Of a DNA stretch of 36,530 nucleotides, positions 4,055-25,487 are shown piece after piece (the stretch's first letter is position 1; each line of letters opens with the position of its first letter). The notes under the pieces are model-generated. The model was given only the letters and a program-made list of their open reading frames with translations. It was not told the DNA's origin and searched no databases. The stretch is from an uncultured Pelagibacteraceae bacterium (GTDB lineage Bacteria; Pseudomonadota; Alphaproteobacteria; Pelagibacterales; Pelagibacteraceae), in assembly GCA_902572155.1 (NCBI GenBank), contig CACGET010000002.1:1-36530 (forward strand), read 5' to 3'. A program made the position numbers and the translations under genes.

Positions 4055-5053
4055 TTAATTCACTGGTAAAAGATTAAAATAAAATAAAAAACTAGCTGTC
4101 AATACAACCCATATTAAAGAAATTGGAAGGAATACTTTCCAACCTAATCTCATCAATTGATCATACCTGTACCTTGGAACAATAGCTTTTACTAAAGCGA
4201 AAAGGAAAAATAATAATAATATCTTTAGTATTAACCAAACAGGACCTGGAACTAAAGTAAAAGGATAAATTTCAAGAGGAGATAACCAGCCTCCTAAAAA
4301 TAATACTGAACCAATCGCACACATTAAAAGAATATTTGCATATTCACCAAGCCAAAACATAGCATACATCATGCCAGAATATTCTGTTTGATATCCAGCT
4401 ACCAATTCAGCTTCTGCTTCTGGTAGATCGAATGGTGGTCTATTTGTTTCAGCTAATGCTGAAATAAAAAAAATAATAAACATTGGGAACAGAGGAATAA
4501 CAAACCATAAGTCTTGCTGAGCTATTACAATATCATTTAAATTAAGTGACCCAACACACAGTAAAACATTTATAATTATTACTCCAATAGATACCTCATA
4601 GGAAACCATTTGAGCTGCAGATCTAATTGCTCCTAAAAATGGATATTTAGAATTTGATGCCCAACCACCCATTATAATTCCATAAACACCAAGAGATGAA
4701 ACAGCAAATAAATAAAGAATTCCAACATTGATATCAGCCAATACCTGAGTTGCACTAAATGGTATTACGGCCCAAGCAATTAATGCAAGAGTCATTGTTA
4801 CAATAGGTGCAAGGATAAAAATTACTTTATTTGCACTTGATGGGATGATAATTTCCTTAAATACATATTTTAATGCATCAGCAATAGTTTGTAACAATCC
4901 AAAAGGTCCTACAACATTAGGTCCTTGTCTTTTTTGAACAAAAGCCCAAACTCTTCTATCAAGCCAGACAATCATGGCAACAGAAACCAGAACAGGAACA
5001 AGTAAAAAAATAATTTTGTAAACTTCATCAAAAAAAATACTTAAATATTCCAT
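4055..5053 (-). CDS. nuoH: NADH-quinone oxidoreductase subunit H
   Basis: NuoH is the membrane subunit that forms much of the quinone-binding cavity and joins the hydrophilic and membrane arms. The 332-residue product has eight or so membrane helices. It contains the diagnostic motifs [20 protein letters not shown] near residues 28-47 and [20 protein letters not shown] near 200-220, the acidic loop characteristic of the subunit. The ATG immediately follows the nuoG stop (TAAATG), and nuoI follows after two bases. Confidence 0.97.
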
Positions 5054-7084
5054 TTAACCTTCTGTTCCAGTCGACTTAAGGTTTAATTTAGAGTTGTTAC
5101 ACTCAATCATAGTTTTTGAAGATTTAGCAATAACATTTGAAAAATAATAATCTTTTAATTGAATATTTAATTTTTCATTTTGAAAATTTAGAGTTTCTAT
5201 TTCTTTATAATCTAAATTTTTGTTTTCTTGTTGAAGTTTTATATAATTAAACATGCTACTTTCTAATTCCTCTTTATCATTAAATAATTTTCGATTATTC
5301 ATGATTTCGGCTAATTCATTAATAATTTGCCAGTCTTCTTTGGCTTCACCTGGAGGGTAAGATGCTTTATATGCTTTTTGTATTTTCCCCTCTAAATTTG
5401 TAAAATATCCATCCTGTTCAGTAAAAGCCGATCCTGGTAAAATAATATCTGCTATCTCTGCACCCTTATCTCCATGACTACCTTGATAAATTATAAATTC
5501 ATCTTTTTTATTAAATTCTAAGTTATCTTGTCCTGCTAGATAAACAATTTCAAATTTATTTGATTTTAATTCTTCCAATAAATTAATTCTATTATTTAAT
5601 ATTCCTAAATCAAAATTACCAACTGTTGATGCATCACAAGATAAAATATTTAAAGGATTCCAGTTCTCAGTGAATTTATTATTTTTTTTTAAAAAATTTT
5701 TAATTAAATCAAATAAATATTTTGCTGAATTTAATTTTAATAATGACTCGCCTAACACAATCATTGGATTATTTGCCATAATAATATCTTTAGATATTTC
5801 ATTAGAGCCCTCAAAAATATTTTTTATTAATTGAGTTTGGCCATCTAAATTTTCATAAGGATAGGTTAAATCACCAACATCGTTTAATGAGATTACTTTT
5901 GTTTTATTATTTACATAAGCTTTTCGAATTCTTGCATTTAAGATTGTGGCTTCATATCTTGGATTTGTACCAATTAAAAATATCAAATCTGAGTCTTCAA
6001 TTCCATTTATAGAAGAATTAAATATATAATTCTCTCTTTCAGAGTTATCTACAAATCTATTATCTGATCTTGAGTCGTAATTATTATTATTTAAAGTTCG
6101 ATCAAAAAATTCTTTAAAGATATATCCTGTTTCCATATTGGTTAAGTCACCAACAAAACCACAAATCTTATCCTTATGTGTGTTTTCAAATTTAGATTTA
6201 ATAATTTTAAACACTTCATTCCATGAAGCTTTTTCAAATTTATCATTATATTTTATATAAGGTGTATCTAATCTTTGATTTAATAGGCCATCACATGCAT
6301 ATCTTGTCTTGTCTGAAATCCATTCTTCATTAATGTCCTCATTAATCAATGGTAAAACTCTTTTGACTTCCCATTCATATGTATCTACTCTCACATTTGA
6401 TCCAACTGCATCCATTACATCAATTGTCTCTGTTTTTTTTAATTCCCAAGGTCTTGCCTCAAATACATAAGGTTTAGATGTTAAAGCTCCTACTGGACAA
6501 AGATCTATTACATTTGCAGATAATTCAGATTGCATAGCTTCTTCTAAGTATGTTGTTATTTGCATATCTTCACCTCTACCGATTGCACCAATTTCAGAAA
6601 CTCCGGCGATTTCAGTCGCAAATCTTACGCATCTAGTACAATGAATACATCTTGTCATTTGAGTTTTTATTAATGGCCCCATATATTTTTCTGGAACAGC
6701 TCGTTTATTTTCTTTAAATCTAGATTTATCTACGCCATAAAACATAGATTGATCTTGAAGATCACATTCACCACCTTGGTCGCATACTGGACAATCTAAA
6801 GGGTGATTAGCTAATAAAAACTCCATTACTCCCTTTCTTGCTTTTTCAACAAAAGGTGTGTTGGTTTTAATATTCATTCCTTCAGCAGCTGGCATTGCAC
6901 AAGATGCAACAGGTTTAGGAGATTTTTCCATCTCAACCAAACACATTCTGCAGTTACCTGCTATAGATAGTTTTTCATGGTAACAAAACCGTGGAATTTC
7001 AACCCCTGCTTTTTCGCAAGCTTGTAAAACTGTCAAACCCTCATCTATCTCCACTTCTATATCATTAACTTTTAATTTAGGCAT
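5054..7084 (-). CDS. nuoG: NADH-quinone oxidoreductase subunit G
   Basis: NuoG is the large iron-sulfur subunit of the NADH-dehydrogenase arm. The 676-residue product has an N-terminal [2Fe-2S] domain (Cys34, Cys45, Cys48, Cys62). It is followed by the His94/Cys98/Cys101/Cys107 set for cluster N5 and the CIHCTRC set with a later Cys near 196 for another [4Fe-4S] cluster. The C-terminal molybdopterin-oxidoreductase-like domain is present, with [18 protein letters not shown] as a recognisable segment, but it is diverged and rich in Asn and Lys. It overlaps nuoF by eight bases and abuts nuoH. Confidence 0.96.
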
Positions 7085-21346: not shown

Positions 21347-21423
21347 TGGTAGCGGGAAGTGGGATCGAACCACTGACCTCAGGCTTATGAGTCCTGCGCT
21401 CTAACCAACTGAGCTACCCCGCC
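21347..21423 (-). tRNA. tRNA-Met (CAT), probably elongator
   Basis: The minus strand gives a cloverleaf with acceptor GGCGGGG/TCCCGCT (G-T wobbles at both ends), D-arm GCTC/GAGC, anticodon loop CTCATAA, T-arm AGTGG/CCACT, and encoded ACCA. The anticodon stem is CAGGA/GCCTG, so position 31-39 is an A-G mismatch. It lacks the GGG/CCC anticodon-stem pairs of initiators. A lysidine-modified tRNA-Ile reading of CAT is less likely given the GGCGGGG acceptor. Confidence 0.9.
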
Positions 21424-21901: not shown

Positions 21902-21921
21902 ATATAATTTTTACTTTTAAT

Positions 21922-22758
21922 CTAACTTTGTTTTGCTACAGTGAATTTAACTTTTTTATCTTTATAATCTCTACCGGAACCAGTAACACTACCATCATCA
22001 TTCCAATTAAGTGTTCCAGCTGCGCCCATATTGTTTGAACAAGCTAATAACCATGTGCCTTTTCCACCATTTTGTAATAAATATGTTCCTTCACAGCTTC
22101 CATCATTGTTAGGTAATTCTAAACTCATAGAGGTTTTTCCATCATCAGATTCCTCATACCCTACAGTTCCAATTATTAATTCTTCGTAGCCATCCCAACT
22201 AATAGCAACAGATCTTTCACCTTTAACTTCTTTTTTCTTTGCAATTTTTTTTTCATTTTTTTTATCATCATTATTAGATTGAGACTTGTATCCACCATCA
22301 TAAAAACCTAATTCTTGAAGAATTTGTAATGTTTTTCCAGCTTTAATATCTTTACGTTTAAGTCGTCTCTTTTTATAAGGTGTACCATTGTCCCAAACAA
22401 TTGTATTTCTACTTGCAAAAAGATAGCATTCTTGACCTGATTTTTTTTTACATGATGATATGGCTTGACCTGTATAATGTCCTGGGGCCACATTATCTTT
22501 ATATCTTGTGGGTGTATTAAACCAAGAATAATAATTTCCATCTGCTGAAATTACAATTAGTTCACCTATCCATGACTCTTTTTGTGACTGAGCATACGCC
22601 CCTTTTTTACCCCCACTAAAATAATATTCTAATAAATTTGCAGTATCAGTGCTTATTTTTAAAGGTCCTTTTCCTTTTTTAAAGCTGCCAGAGACAGATG
22701 CTAGGGATAAATTAAAATTAAAAATAAATATTATTACTAAACAAAATATTTTTTTCAT
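21922..22758 (-). CDS. Secreted two-domain protein, paralogue 2
   Basis: The 278-residue protein has a signal peptide (about residues 1-20, ending SLA). An N-terminal domain of ~130 residues has SADGNYYSWF, SSCKKKSGQECYLFASRN and TIVWDNG. A Lys/Glu-rich linker near residues 155-180 follows, and then a C-terminal domain of ~95 residues. That domain reads RSVAISWDGYEELIIGTVGY, DGSCEGTYLLQNGGKGTW, NNMGAAGTLNW and VTGSGRDYKDKKVKFTVAKQ. The gene starts on the base after the paralogue 1 stop. The C-terminal domain is closely similar in the two, so this is a tandem duplication. No established function is recognised; paired cysteines and export suggest an envelope or surface role. Confidence 0.75.
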   Translation of the reverse strand: MKKIFCLVIIFIFNFNLSLASVSGSFKKGKGPLKISTDTANLLEYYFSGGKKGAYAQSQKESWIGELIVISADGNYYSWFNTPTRYKDNVAPGHYTGQAISSCKKKSGQECYLFASRNTIVWDNGTPYKKRRLKRKDIKAGKTLQILQELGFYDGGYKSQSNNDDKKNEKKIAKKKEVKGERSVAISWDGYEELIIGTVGYEESDDGKTSMSLELPNNDGSCEGTYLLQNGGKGTWLLACSNNMGAAGTLNWNDDGSVTGSGRDYKDKKVKFTVAKQS

Positions 22759-23550
22759 TTAACTTTGTTTTGAAACGGTGAATTTAACTTTTTTATCATT
22801 ATGATCTCTTCCAGATCCAGTGACTCCTCCATCTCCCCATTTTAAGGTTCCAGCTGCACCCATTTTGTTTGTACAACCTATCTGCCATGTTCCCTTTCCA
22901 TCAGCTTGTAAAGAGTAAGTTCCTTCACATGTGCCATCATAATTTGGTAAAGATAAGTTTAGTGTACCTTTATAATTTTCTTCATCAAAATTTATAACTC
23001 CTGCTATCAAATCAGAGTAACCATCCCAACTTAAAGCAATTGATCTTTTGCCTTTAAGCTCGTATTTTTTTCCTAATATATCTTTTGTTTCATCTTTTTT
23101 ATTATTTTCTGATGAATTTGTTGTACTTTCAATAGTTTCTCCAACAAAACCTAATTCCGTTAGCTTGGCAACTAATTCCTCTTTACTCCATTTGCTACTA
23201 ACTCTAGAAACTTTTCCTCTACCAGGATTAGTTCCATTTTTCCATTTTATCGTTTTTCCTCTTGCAAAAGTTTTACATGCTGTACCTGCTTTAATTTCAC
23301 ATTGTCTTATTTTAACATTATCTCCTCCTGCACGACATGAACCAGTGGGACAGTACCAATACATTGCATAAGACCCATCTGTTGCAACAACAAATGTCTC
23401 TGGGCTTTTTCCACCTTTAATCGTTATATATTGATGAAAATAATCAATTAAAAAATCCTCCATCTTGAACTCTCCTTCACCAATATCTCCAGAATGAGCA
23501 TTAGTTGCTAAGAACAAACTAAGTATTAAAAATTTTAAGACTTTTTTCAT
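22759..23550 (-). CDS. Secreted two-domain protein, paralogue 1
   Basis: The 263-residue protein begins MKKVLKFLILSLFLATNAHS, a clear signal peptide. I chose the ATG at 23550, preceded by AGGA about nine bases upstream, over a GTG five codons earlier. The N-terminal domain carries four cysteines in CPTGSC, CEIKAGTAC and FARGKTIKWKNG. A polar linker (about residues 145-165) leads to the C-terminal domain with RSIALSWDGYSDLIAGVINF, DGTCEGTYSLQADGKGTW, NKMGAAGTLKW and GSGRDHNDKKVKFTVSKQS. It is the first of the tandem pair and lies 43 bases downstream of the YqgE/AlgH gene. Function unknown. Confidence 0.75.
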   Translation of the reverse strand: MKKVLKFLILSLFLATNAHSGDIGEGEFKMEDFLIDYFHQYITIKGGKSPETFVVATDGSYAMYWYCPTGSCRAGGDNVKIRQCEIKAGTACKTFARGKTIKWKNGTNPGRGKVSRVSSKWSKEELVAKLTELGFVGETIESTTNSSENNKKDETKDILGKKYELKGKRSIALSWDGYSDLIAGVINFDEENYKGTLNLSLPNYDGTCEGTYSLQADGKGTWQIGCTNKMGAAGTLKWGDGGVTGSGRDHNDKKVKFTVSKQS

Positions 23551-23593: not shown

Positions 23594-24229
23594 TTACAAA
23601 GGTACAAATATTTTATTTAACGCTGAATTCCATTTATTTTTATTGTCAGCATTAAAGATTAGATTAAGTTCAGTTTCTGCTAAAGACCATTGATCTCTTT
23701 CTAGTTCTCCTTCAAGTTGATTTTCACCCCATCCTGAAATTCCAATTAAAATCAAGTTTTCCTTAGGACCTTTATTTTCTGAAATATCAATTAAAATTTG
23801 TAAATCATTAGTTACTGATAGTGAATTAAAAATCTTAGTACTTTTACTTTTGTATTCATTAGTATGAAGAACAAAAATTCTATTTTCATCTACAGGACCT
23901 CCCCAATATATAGGTAACGTAAGTTTTTCCAGTTTCTTTTTATCAGTCTTTTTAATGTTATTATTATTACTAACTAATGATGATAGTGGATATTCTCCTA
24001 AAAACTTATTAACCGCAAAGCCAAATGCTCCTTTTTCATCATGTTCCAACAAGATTATAACTGATTTATAAAATTTAGAATCTGTATTATCGTTTTGTGC
24101 AACTAATAGATTATCCTTAAAACTCTGAGTATATATACCTTCTTTATAATTTTTTGGTAAATCTGTTGTATTTCCTGCAGTTACAAATATCTGCACAAAT
24201 ATAAATAACGTAATTAATCTTAAAATCAT
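23594..24229 (-). CDS. YqgE/AlgH (UPF0301) protein with N-terminal signal peptide
   Basis: The 211-residue product has the UPF0301 core: NLLVAQNDNTDSKFYKSVIILLEHDEKGAFGFAVNK, LPIYWGGPVDENRIFVLHT, and LILIGISGWGENQLEGELERDQW. Each element is in the family order and spacing. Before the core is a ~38-residue extension starting MILRLITLFIFVQIFVTAGN, which looks like a cleavable signal peptide. Canonical YqgE/AlgH proteins are cytoplasmic and start near the LLVA motif, so the extension is unusual. It follows the AsmA-like gene after eight bases. Confidence 0.85.
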   Translation of the reverse strand: MILRLITLFIFVQIFVTAGNTTDLPKNYKEGIYTQSFKDNLLVAQNDNTDSKFYKSVIILLEHDEKGAFGFAVNKFLGEYPLSSLVSNNNNIKKTDKKKLEKLTLPIYWGGPVDENRIFVLHTNEYKSKSTKIFNSLSVTNDLQILIDISENKGPKENLILIGISGWGENQLEGELERDQWSLAETELNLIFNADNKNKWNSALNKIFVPL

Positions 24230-24992: not shown

Positions 24993-25487
24993 TTAAAATT
25001 TAATTATACTCTCAATAATTTTTCCGTTACATCTTGTTCTAATCCGTGCTGTCTCACCTTGATTTCTAAATGTGGCATAAAAAGTATCTCCATCATTTGT
25101 TGGTGTTCCTGTATTTCCCATTAAACTATAACCCCAATGATTATTAGGGCTATAAACATTTTTTAAATAATTTGCTCTATCTATTAATGATCTTTGAACT
25201 AAATCAAATGTTGAGGTATTACAATTATAAATATATTCACTGCCTTGTTTAAAGTTTGAAAACCAGTTTCTAAGAGTAACTTTTTTATTAAGCTTACATA
25301 TTGAATAATTTTCCTTAATACTTTTAACTAAAATTTGGTGATTTTTTTTACACACTTTTTCTTTAGAGGAGGTCATATAATTATTATAACTAATTACACC
25401 TACAGCAGCCAAAACTCCTATAATTGCAACCACAACCAAAAGTTCTATTAAAGTGAATCCCTTTTTTTTTAACAAATAAAAACTCAT
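24993..25487 (-). CDS. Type IV pilin-like prepilin protein
   Basis: The 164-residue product carries a textbook prepilin signal. The leader MSFYLLKKKG is followed by the cleavage/N-methylation site at Gly10-Phe11 and FTLIELLVVVAIIGVLAAVG, with the +5 glutamate at Glu15. The globular part has paired cysteines at CKKNH, SICKLN, YNC and RTRCNGK near the C-terminus. A peptidase and an assembly ATPase would be needed; none is in this window. A TTG at codon 5 would give the shorter leader MLKKKG. The start codon sits in a hairpin, described separately. The AsmA-like gene follows after two bases. Confidence 0.88.
   Translation of the reverse strand: MSFYLLKKKGFTLIELLVVVAIIGVLAAVGVISYNNYMTSSKEKVCKKNHQILVKSIKENYSICKLNKKVTLRNWFSNFKQGSEYIYNCNTSTFDLVQRSLIDRANYLKNVYSPNNHWGYSLMGNTGTPTNDGDTFYATFRNQGETARIRTRCNGKIIESIIKF

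Follow-up and report, generated by a model that had tools for sequence, protein, structure and literature searches.

Cargo of the Slam-dependent type XI secretion system (T11SS) consists of a variable N-terminal effector followed by an eight-stranded C-terminal barrel (PMC12282271). A role in localisation has been proposed for the C-terminal module SHOCT (PF09851) (PMC3581485). Calycins, which include the lipocalins, fatty-acid-binding proteins (FABPs), nitrobindin, and avidin, are also barrel proteins. Rv1813c, a member of DUF4189 (PF13827), is built from two facing beta-beta-alpha-beta lobes with four Cys and a WACN motif (PMC10269737). In SAR11, recombination is reported to be unusually promiscuous (PMC12374537).

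Here, two adjacent genes of an ocean SAR11 bacterium, B and A, are compared with these systems. They lie in the window, the stretch of 36,530 nucleotides that was analysed. Their products most likely belong to an alphaproteobacterial family that has yet to be catalogued, made up of Sec-exported envelope proteins that would be periplasmic in SAR11. It is highly probable that the family combines an exported-type anatomy with module exchange.

Two adjacent exported proteins with a common C-terminal domain

Genes B and A share the minus strand (Table 1), and the ATG of A directly follows the TAA of B, with 0 bp between them. Behind the leader of each protein, a Lys/Asn-rich linker connects an N-domain to a C-terminal domain. 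By inspection, both leaders are hydrophobic and end in a small-residue cleavage motif. The original prediction, that two adjacent exported proteins here have a common C-terminal domain, is borne out: both open reading frames are in place, and every motif that it quoted occurs in the sequence. A scan for promoters and terminators gave no more sites than shuffled sequence.

Over their full length, A and B are 41% identical (BLASTP, E 1e-57). The C-terminal domains (~98 residues) are 62-64% identical and the N-domains 28-37%, a range set by the boundaries chosen. The greater closeness of the C-terminal halves (64% versus 37%) agrees with the original prediction. Compared with shuffles, the alignment scores reach z = 10 for the N-domains and z = 32 for the C-terminal domains; thus, neither similarity is due to chance. 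The N-domain had been described as Cys-containing and looser. The Cys are indeed present, as C84 and C92 of B and a matching pair in A, and they are invariant in 13/13 and 19/19 aligned sequences. The N-domains are not merely looser, since their similarity (z = 10) reflects real homology.

Table 1. Features of the B-A gene pair in the window.
Feature	Position	Strand	Description
Gene B	22759..23550	-	Exported two-domain protein, 263 aa, N-domain + barrel; ATG 23550, stop 22759
Gene A	21922..22758	-	Exported two-domain protein, 278 aa, N-domain + barrel; ATG 22758, stop 21922
Leader peptide of B, MKKVLKFLILSLFLATNAHS	23491..23550	-	Sec type, by inspection; helix in model
Leader peptide of A, MKKIFCLVIIFIFNFNLSLAS	22696..22758	-	Sec type, by inspection
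N-domain of B	23146..23487	-	GxG motif, helix, beta-beta-alpha-beta lobe, invariant Cys pair, final helix with ELGF
N-domain of A	22303..22674	-	Family of B's N-domain, other clade
C-terminal barrel of B	22762..23055	-	Eight antiparallel strands, Cys pair; signature W..GY / CxG / GxWxxxC / AxG / GxGxD
C-terminal barrel of A	21925..22224	-	64% identical to B's barrel
Tract with 1 base difference from L003:~6449-6810	21906..22256	-	Spans end of A's Lys-rich linker, barrel, stop codon, ~16 bases beyond

Fold of the C-terminal domain

An AlphaFold2 model of B, built from an alignment of 30 homologues, averages a pLDDT of 86, and the linker is the only part modelled with low confidence. Residues 167-259 are predicted to form eight antiparallel strands in simple order, which corresponds to a meander barrel. 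Sixteen diverse barrels share the invariant positions W10, C44-x-G46, G56-x-W58-x3-C62, A68-x-G70, and G82-x-G84-x-D86. The top PDB matches of the barrel in Foldseek are designed eight-stranded barrels (mFAP, E 4e-5), followed by HphA (8glo, E 7e-4), the best natural match of single-domain size. NHBA, nitrobindin, and FABPs match more weakly, the last two at E 3e-3 to 2e-2. No match was found in a viral fold library at E 0.001. The C-terminal domain was originally left unnamed, with a calycin-like fold as a guess. In keeping with this, neither A nor B matches a curated Pfam or NCBIfam family, and the fold prediction places the barrel in the guessed fold class.

The barrel could therefore be a ligand-binding calycin of lipocalin, FABP, or avidin type that holds a small molecule inside, with the N-domain delivering or sensing it. 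B's barrel has the predicted antiparallel meander, of 8 or 10 strands, by which calycins are recognised, its matches include ligand-binding designs as well as nitrobindin and FABPs, and it carries invariant Trp, Gly, and Asp residues. However, the barrel is small, with ~95 residues compared with ~130 in FABP and ~150 in nitrobindin, and it fits both poorly (rmsd about 5 A; by target, TM about 0.4). Most of the invariant residues are Gly, Cys, and Trp, which would suit a structural core. Among PDB sequences, neither the N-domain nor the barrel finds a convincing match, and PDB calycins give no convincing profile match that would indicate common ancestry. A ligand-binding calycin is thus an unlikely reading.

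Fold of the N-domain

Modelled alone, the N-domain of B (pLDDT 90, pTM 0.84) is predicted to be a beta-beta-alpha-beta lobe with one helix before it and another at the end. Among PDB folds, nothing matches it (best E 0.21). A two-lobed SAR11 relative (L006:3591-4268) scores 24.1 bits against DUF4189, for which the Pfam cut-off is 25; none of A, B, and the members in genomes G405 and G494 reaches this cut-off. Membership of the family in DUF4189 was not upheld: the profile-profile comparison was not significant, and the fold search did not have 7nhz among its listed matches.

A recent barrel swap

Locus L003 comes from the single-cell assembly AG-453-O21. It is syntenic with the window, but a single gene occupies the place of the B-A pair. 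The N-domain of this fused gene is 98% identical to that of B, and its barrel is 100% identical to that of A. At the DNA level, the barrels of A and L003 differ at 1/300 bases (dS 0.02), whereas neighbouring genes have dS values of 0.28-1.04. The near-identical tract has 1 difference in ~350 bases and runs from the linker to just past the stop codon (Table 1); outside it, the window and L003 are about 85-86% identical. At its upstream joint, the fusion falls within the A-rich DNA of the linker, at a place where ATGAAA occurs in both A and B. Judged from these sequences, and on the one contig that carries it, the L003 gene is a recent barrel swap: it combines a B-type N-domain with the barrel of A, joined within the Lys-rich linker. 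The L003 case offers a base-level view of how lineages of SAR11, the most abundant bacteria in the ocean, swap a domain. Loci L004 and L005 present a weaker second case of exchange (barrel dS 0.24 versus N dS 1.00).

Single-cell amplification can join sequences, and one such contig was found, so the fused gene could be an assembly or amplification artefact, with no recent barrel exchange behind it. However, the fused reading frame is intact, and the near-identical tract stops just past the stop codon within syntenic DNA of ~86% identity. A chimera formed within one cell would also not be expected to yield 99.7% identity to another species-level lineage, barring cross-contamination between wells. 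An artefact is very unlikely on these grounds.

A stretch of the YqgE/AlgH gene (23684-24133) is up to 97% identical to L003, compared with a regional mean of 85%, and is another likely exchange tract. Exchange in this region is thus not limited to the barrel.

Separate histories of the two domains

In the tree of N-domains, A and B fall into separate clades, and a tree that joins them is rejected (AU p 0.00017). The same tree implies at least seven switches between barrel and SHOCT ends. N-domains of the A type carry a SHOCT end in G648, G585, G599, G134, and L006. A barrel end on this type is confined to the window and G015, and the G015 gene is broken. In this one-contig genome, a frameshift separates the N-domain from the barrel (L131:4713-5476). 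The barrel tree groups A with N-barrel proteins, apart from the barrel of G015, with modest support; it is poorly resolved (100 columns), and union of the A and G015 barrels is not quite rejected (p 0.07).

The barrel also evolves more slowly. Its dN is far below that of the N-domain in most pairs, as between L005 and L006 (0.03 versus 0.81), and the N-domain is faster than the C-terminal domain between non-tandem homologues as well. The N-domain of B and its L003 counterpart differ by a dN of 0.01 and a dS of 0.34. By this measure the N-domain of B is under purifying selection and is not hypervariable.

These results speak against the original prediction that the pair arose by a simple tandem duplication followed by diversification of the N-domains. 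The tandem arrangement, the same architecture, and the closer C-terminal halves would fit such an origin. However, the N-domains belong to different clades, the A-type N-domain is more commonly found with a SHOCT end, N-domains diverge faster whether or not genes are in tandem, and that of B is constrained by purifying selection. Simple duplication has little probability left. Rather, the barrel has been exchanged between genes, and the C-terminal halves are closer because the barrel is both more strongly constrained and exchanged.

Distribution and architectures

The original prediction had proposed to count copies in SAR11. The barrel profile matches 12/250 genomes of the window's genus. It matches 11/385 genomes of the class and, in a phylum sample of 229 genomes, none beyond the window's own. 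The N-domain profile matches 49/250 genomes of the genus and 13/289 of the class (all genus and class counts include the window's own genome). Outside SAR11, N-domain and barrel occur in one protein in the Alphaproteobacteria G405 and G494. Among the class-wide barrel matches outside SAR11, L047 is the sole protein that also has an N-domain, and G405 has both elsewhere. Thus, the N-barrel pairing is not obligatory.

About 60 loci display the architectures N-barrel, N-SHOCT, N-SHOCT-barrel, N-N, N-N-SHOCT, N alone, and barrel on other N-terminal parts. SHOCT is absent from the C-termini of A and B and present on many related N-domain proteins. In the proteins examined the barrel is C-terminal, and it also ends unrelated exported proteins. 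Tandems recur: in addition to the window, G405 has two N-barrel proteins with lipoprotein-type leaders, and G352 has two barrel proteins. A SHOCT gene adjoins a barrel gene in L056, and L129 has barrel, SHOCT, and N-N-SHOCT genes. Five Pelagibacter genomes (L124-L128) share an operon in which the gene for a ~350-aa protein stands between those for N-SHOCT and for a barrel protein; the genes that flank the operon vary. The ~350-aa protein (L124:3817-4854 and its orthologues in L125-L128) is conserved, exported, and of no known family, and has a SHOCT-like stretch right behind its leader. Separately, four tandem lipoprotein-type genes (G322:C240:415-3531; L064, L077) combine the N-domain with another common C-terminal part. 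Proteins of 250 aa in the f2/g7 genomes were rejected as relatives of A: they are alpha/beta-hydrolase-like, and their 40% identity over ~55 residues, with a short WDNY stretch, is a chance similarity.

SAR11 genomes are very small, yet many keep this family in changing architectures. With a profile for each domain, a group of exported proteins of Alphaproteobacteria that are now hypothetical would gain a name.

Genomic surroundings

A pilin-like gene with a prepilin motif (24993-25487) is ~51% identical to its L003 counterpart, whereas its neighbours are 87-90% identical. Pilin-like genes also flank the family locus in L125 and L133. A link of the family to pili was discarded: 4/10 carrier genomes, including G056 (97%) and G064 (96%), are without a pilin-like gene. 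Carriage by phages or plasmids was likewise dropped, with no match found and an N-domain profile too variable for a viral scan.

In L006 (1768-6985), pieces of tRNA-Met surround several genes for exported proteins of this and related kinds. Bases 25-77 occur at 1768-1820 and 4956-5008, a full copy at 5783-5859, and bases 1-56 at 6930-6985. The pieces resemble the marks left by an element with tRNA-Met as its integration site. The same tRNA-Met is found in the window at 21347-21423.

A possible docking role for the barrel

Slow evolution, a C-terminal position, occurrence on unrelated exported proteins, and replacement by SHOCT together suggest that the barrel is a docking, sorting, or assembly module rather than an enzyme. 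The localisation role proposed for SHOCT rests on the same grounds. Moreover, N-domain and barrel are separate within one operon in some genomes and fused in others, which suggests that they act jointly. The barrel is a stand-alone, exchangeable C-terminal module that may serve in assembly or anchoring. Tentatively, it would attach the protein that carries it to a shared partner or site in the envelope, the N-domain would supply the variable contact, and proteins produced together would join one assembly. Recombination within the A-rich DNA of the linker very probably creates new N/C combinations. Adjacent genes in L056 and L129 differ in their C-terminal module, which weakens a rule of one tag for one place. 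Taken as a whole, a modular envelope protein with this anatomy, module exchange, and a docking barrel is a plausible account that falls just short of even confidence.

A broader, rather improbable extension is that Alphaproteobacteria have an unrecognised system of envelope targeting, for which barrel and SHOCT would serve as interchangeable sorting or assembly tags at the C-terminus. SAR11 cells would then swap the tags between proteins through linker recombination. If tags they are, any N-terminal module could reach the same place in the envelope. The exchange of barrel for SHOCT also provides a handle on what SHOCT does.

That the barrel is instead the export signal of a Slam cargo is extremely improbable: the architecture is that of T11SS cargo, and HphA and NHBA are among the fold matches, but neither A nor B matches TbpBBD or lipoprotein_C at E up to 10, and Slam itself is missing from the genomes tested. 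PF04575 (Slam/DUF560) is above cut-off in 0/16 genomes; it is absent from ten Pelagibacter, nine of them at 93-99% completeness, and from 5/6 other Alphaproteobacteria, the sixth having a match below cut-off only. Slam export of A and B thus appears unlikely because the translocon is missing.

Comparison with known systems

Against this background, a modular envelope protein with a putative docking barrel can be set beside the systems described above. T11SS cargo proteins (TbpB, NHBA, fHbp, HphA) are exported and carry an eight-stranded barrel at the C-terminus, behind an N-terminal effector, as A and B do according to the AlphaFold2 model and Foldseek. Unlike these, A and B have no sequence match to the barrel families of the cargo and one small N lobe without a pedestal. 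Calycins share the antiparallel meander barrel; that of A and B is shorter (about 95 residues), has two invariant Cys, and lacks a sequence match. DUF4189 proteins, represented by Rv1813c (PDB 7nhz), are exported and have a beta-beta-alpha-beta lobe and disulfides resembling those of the N-domain, which differs from Rv1813c in having one lobe, two invariant Cys, and no WACN. SHOCT is formed by two short helices rather than a barrel. Like the barrel, it is a short module that follows many unrelated N-terminal parts at the C-terminus, and it takes the place of the barrel on related N-domains.
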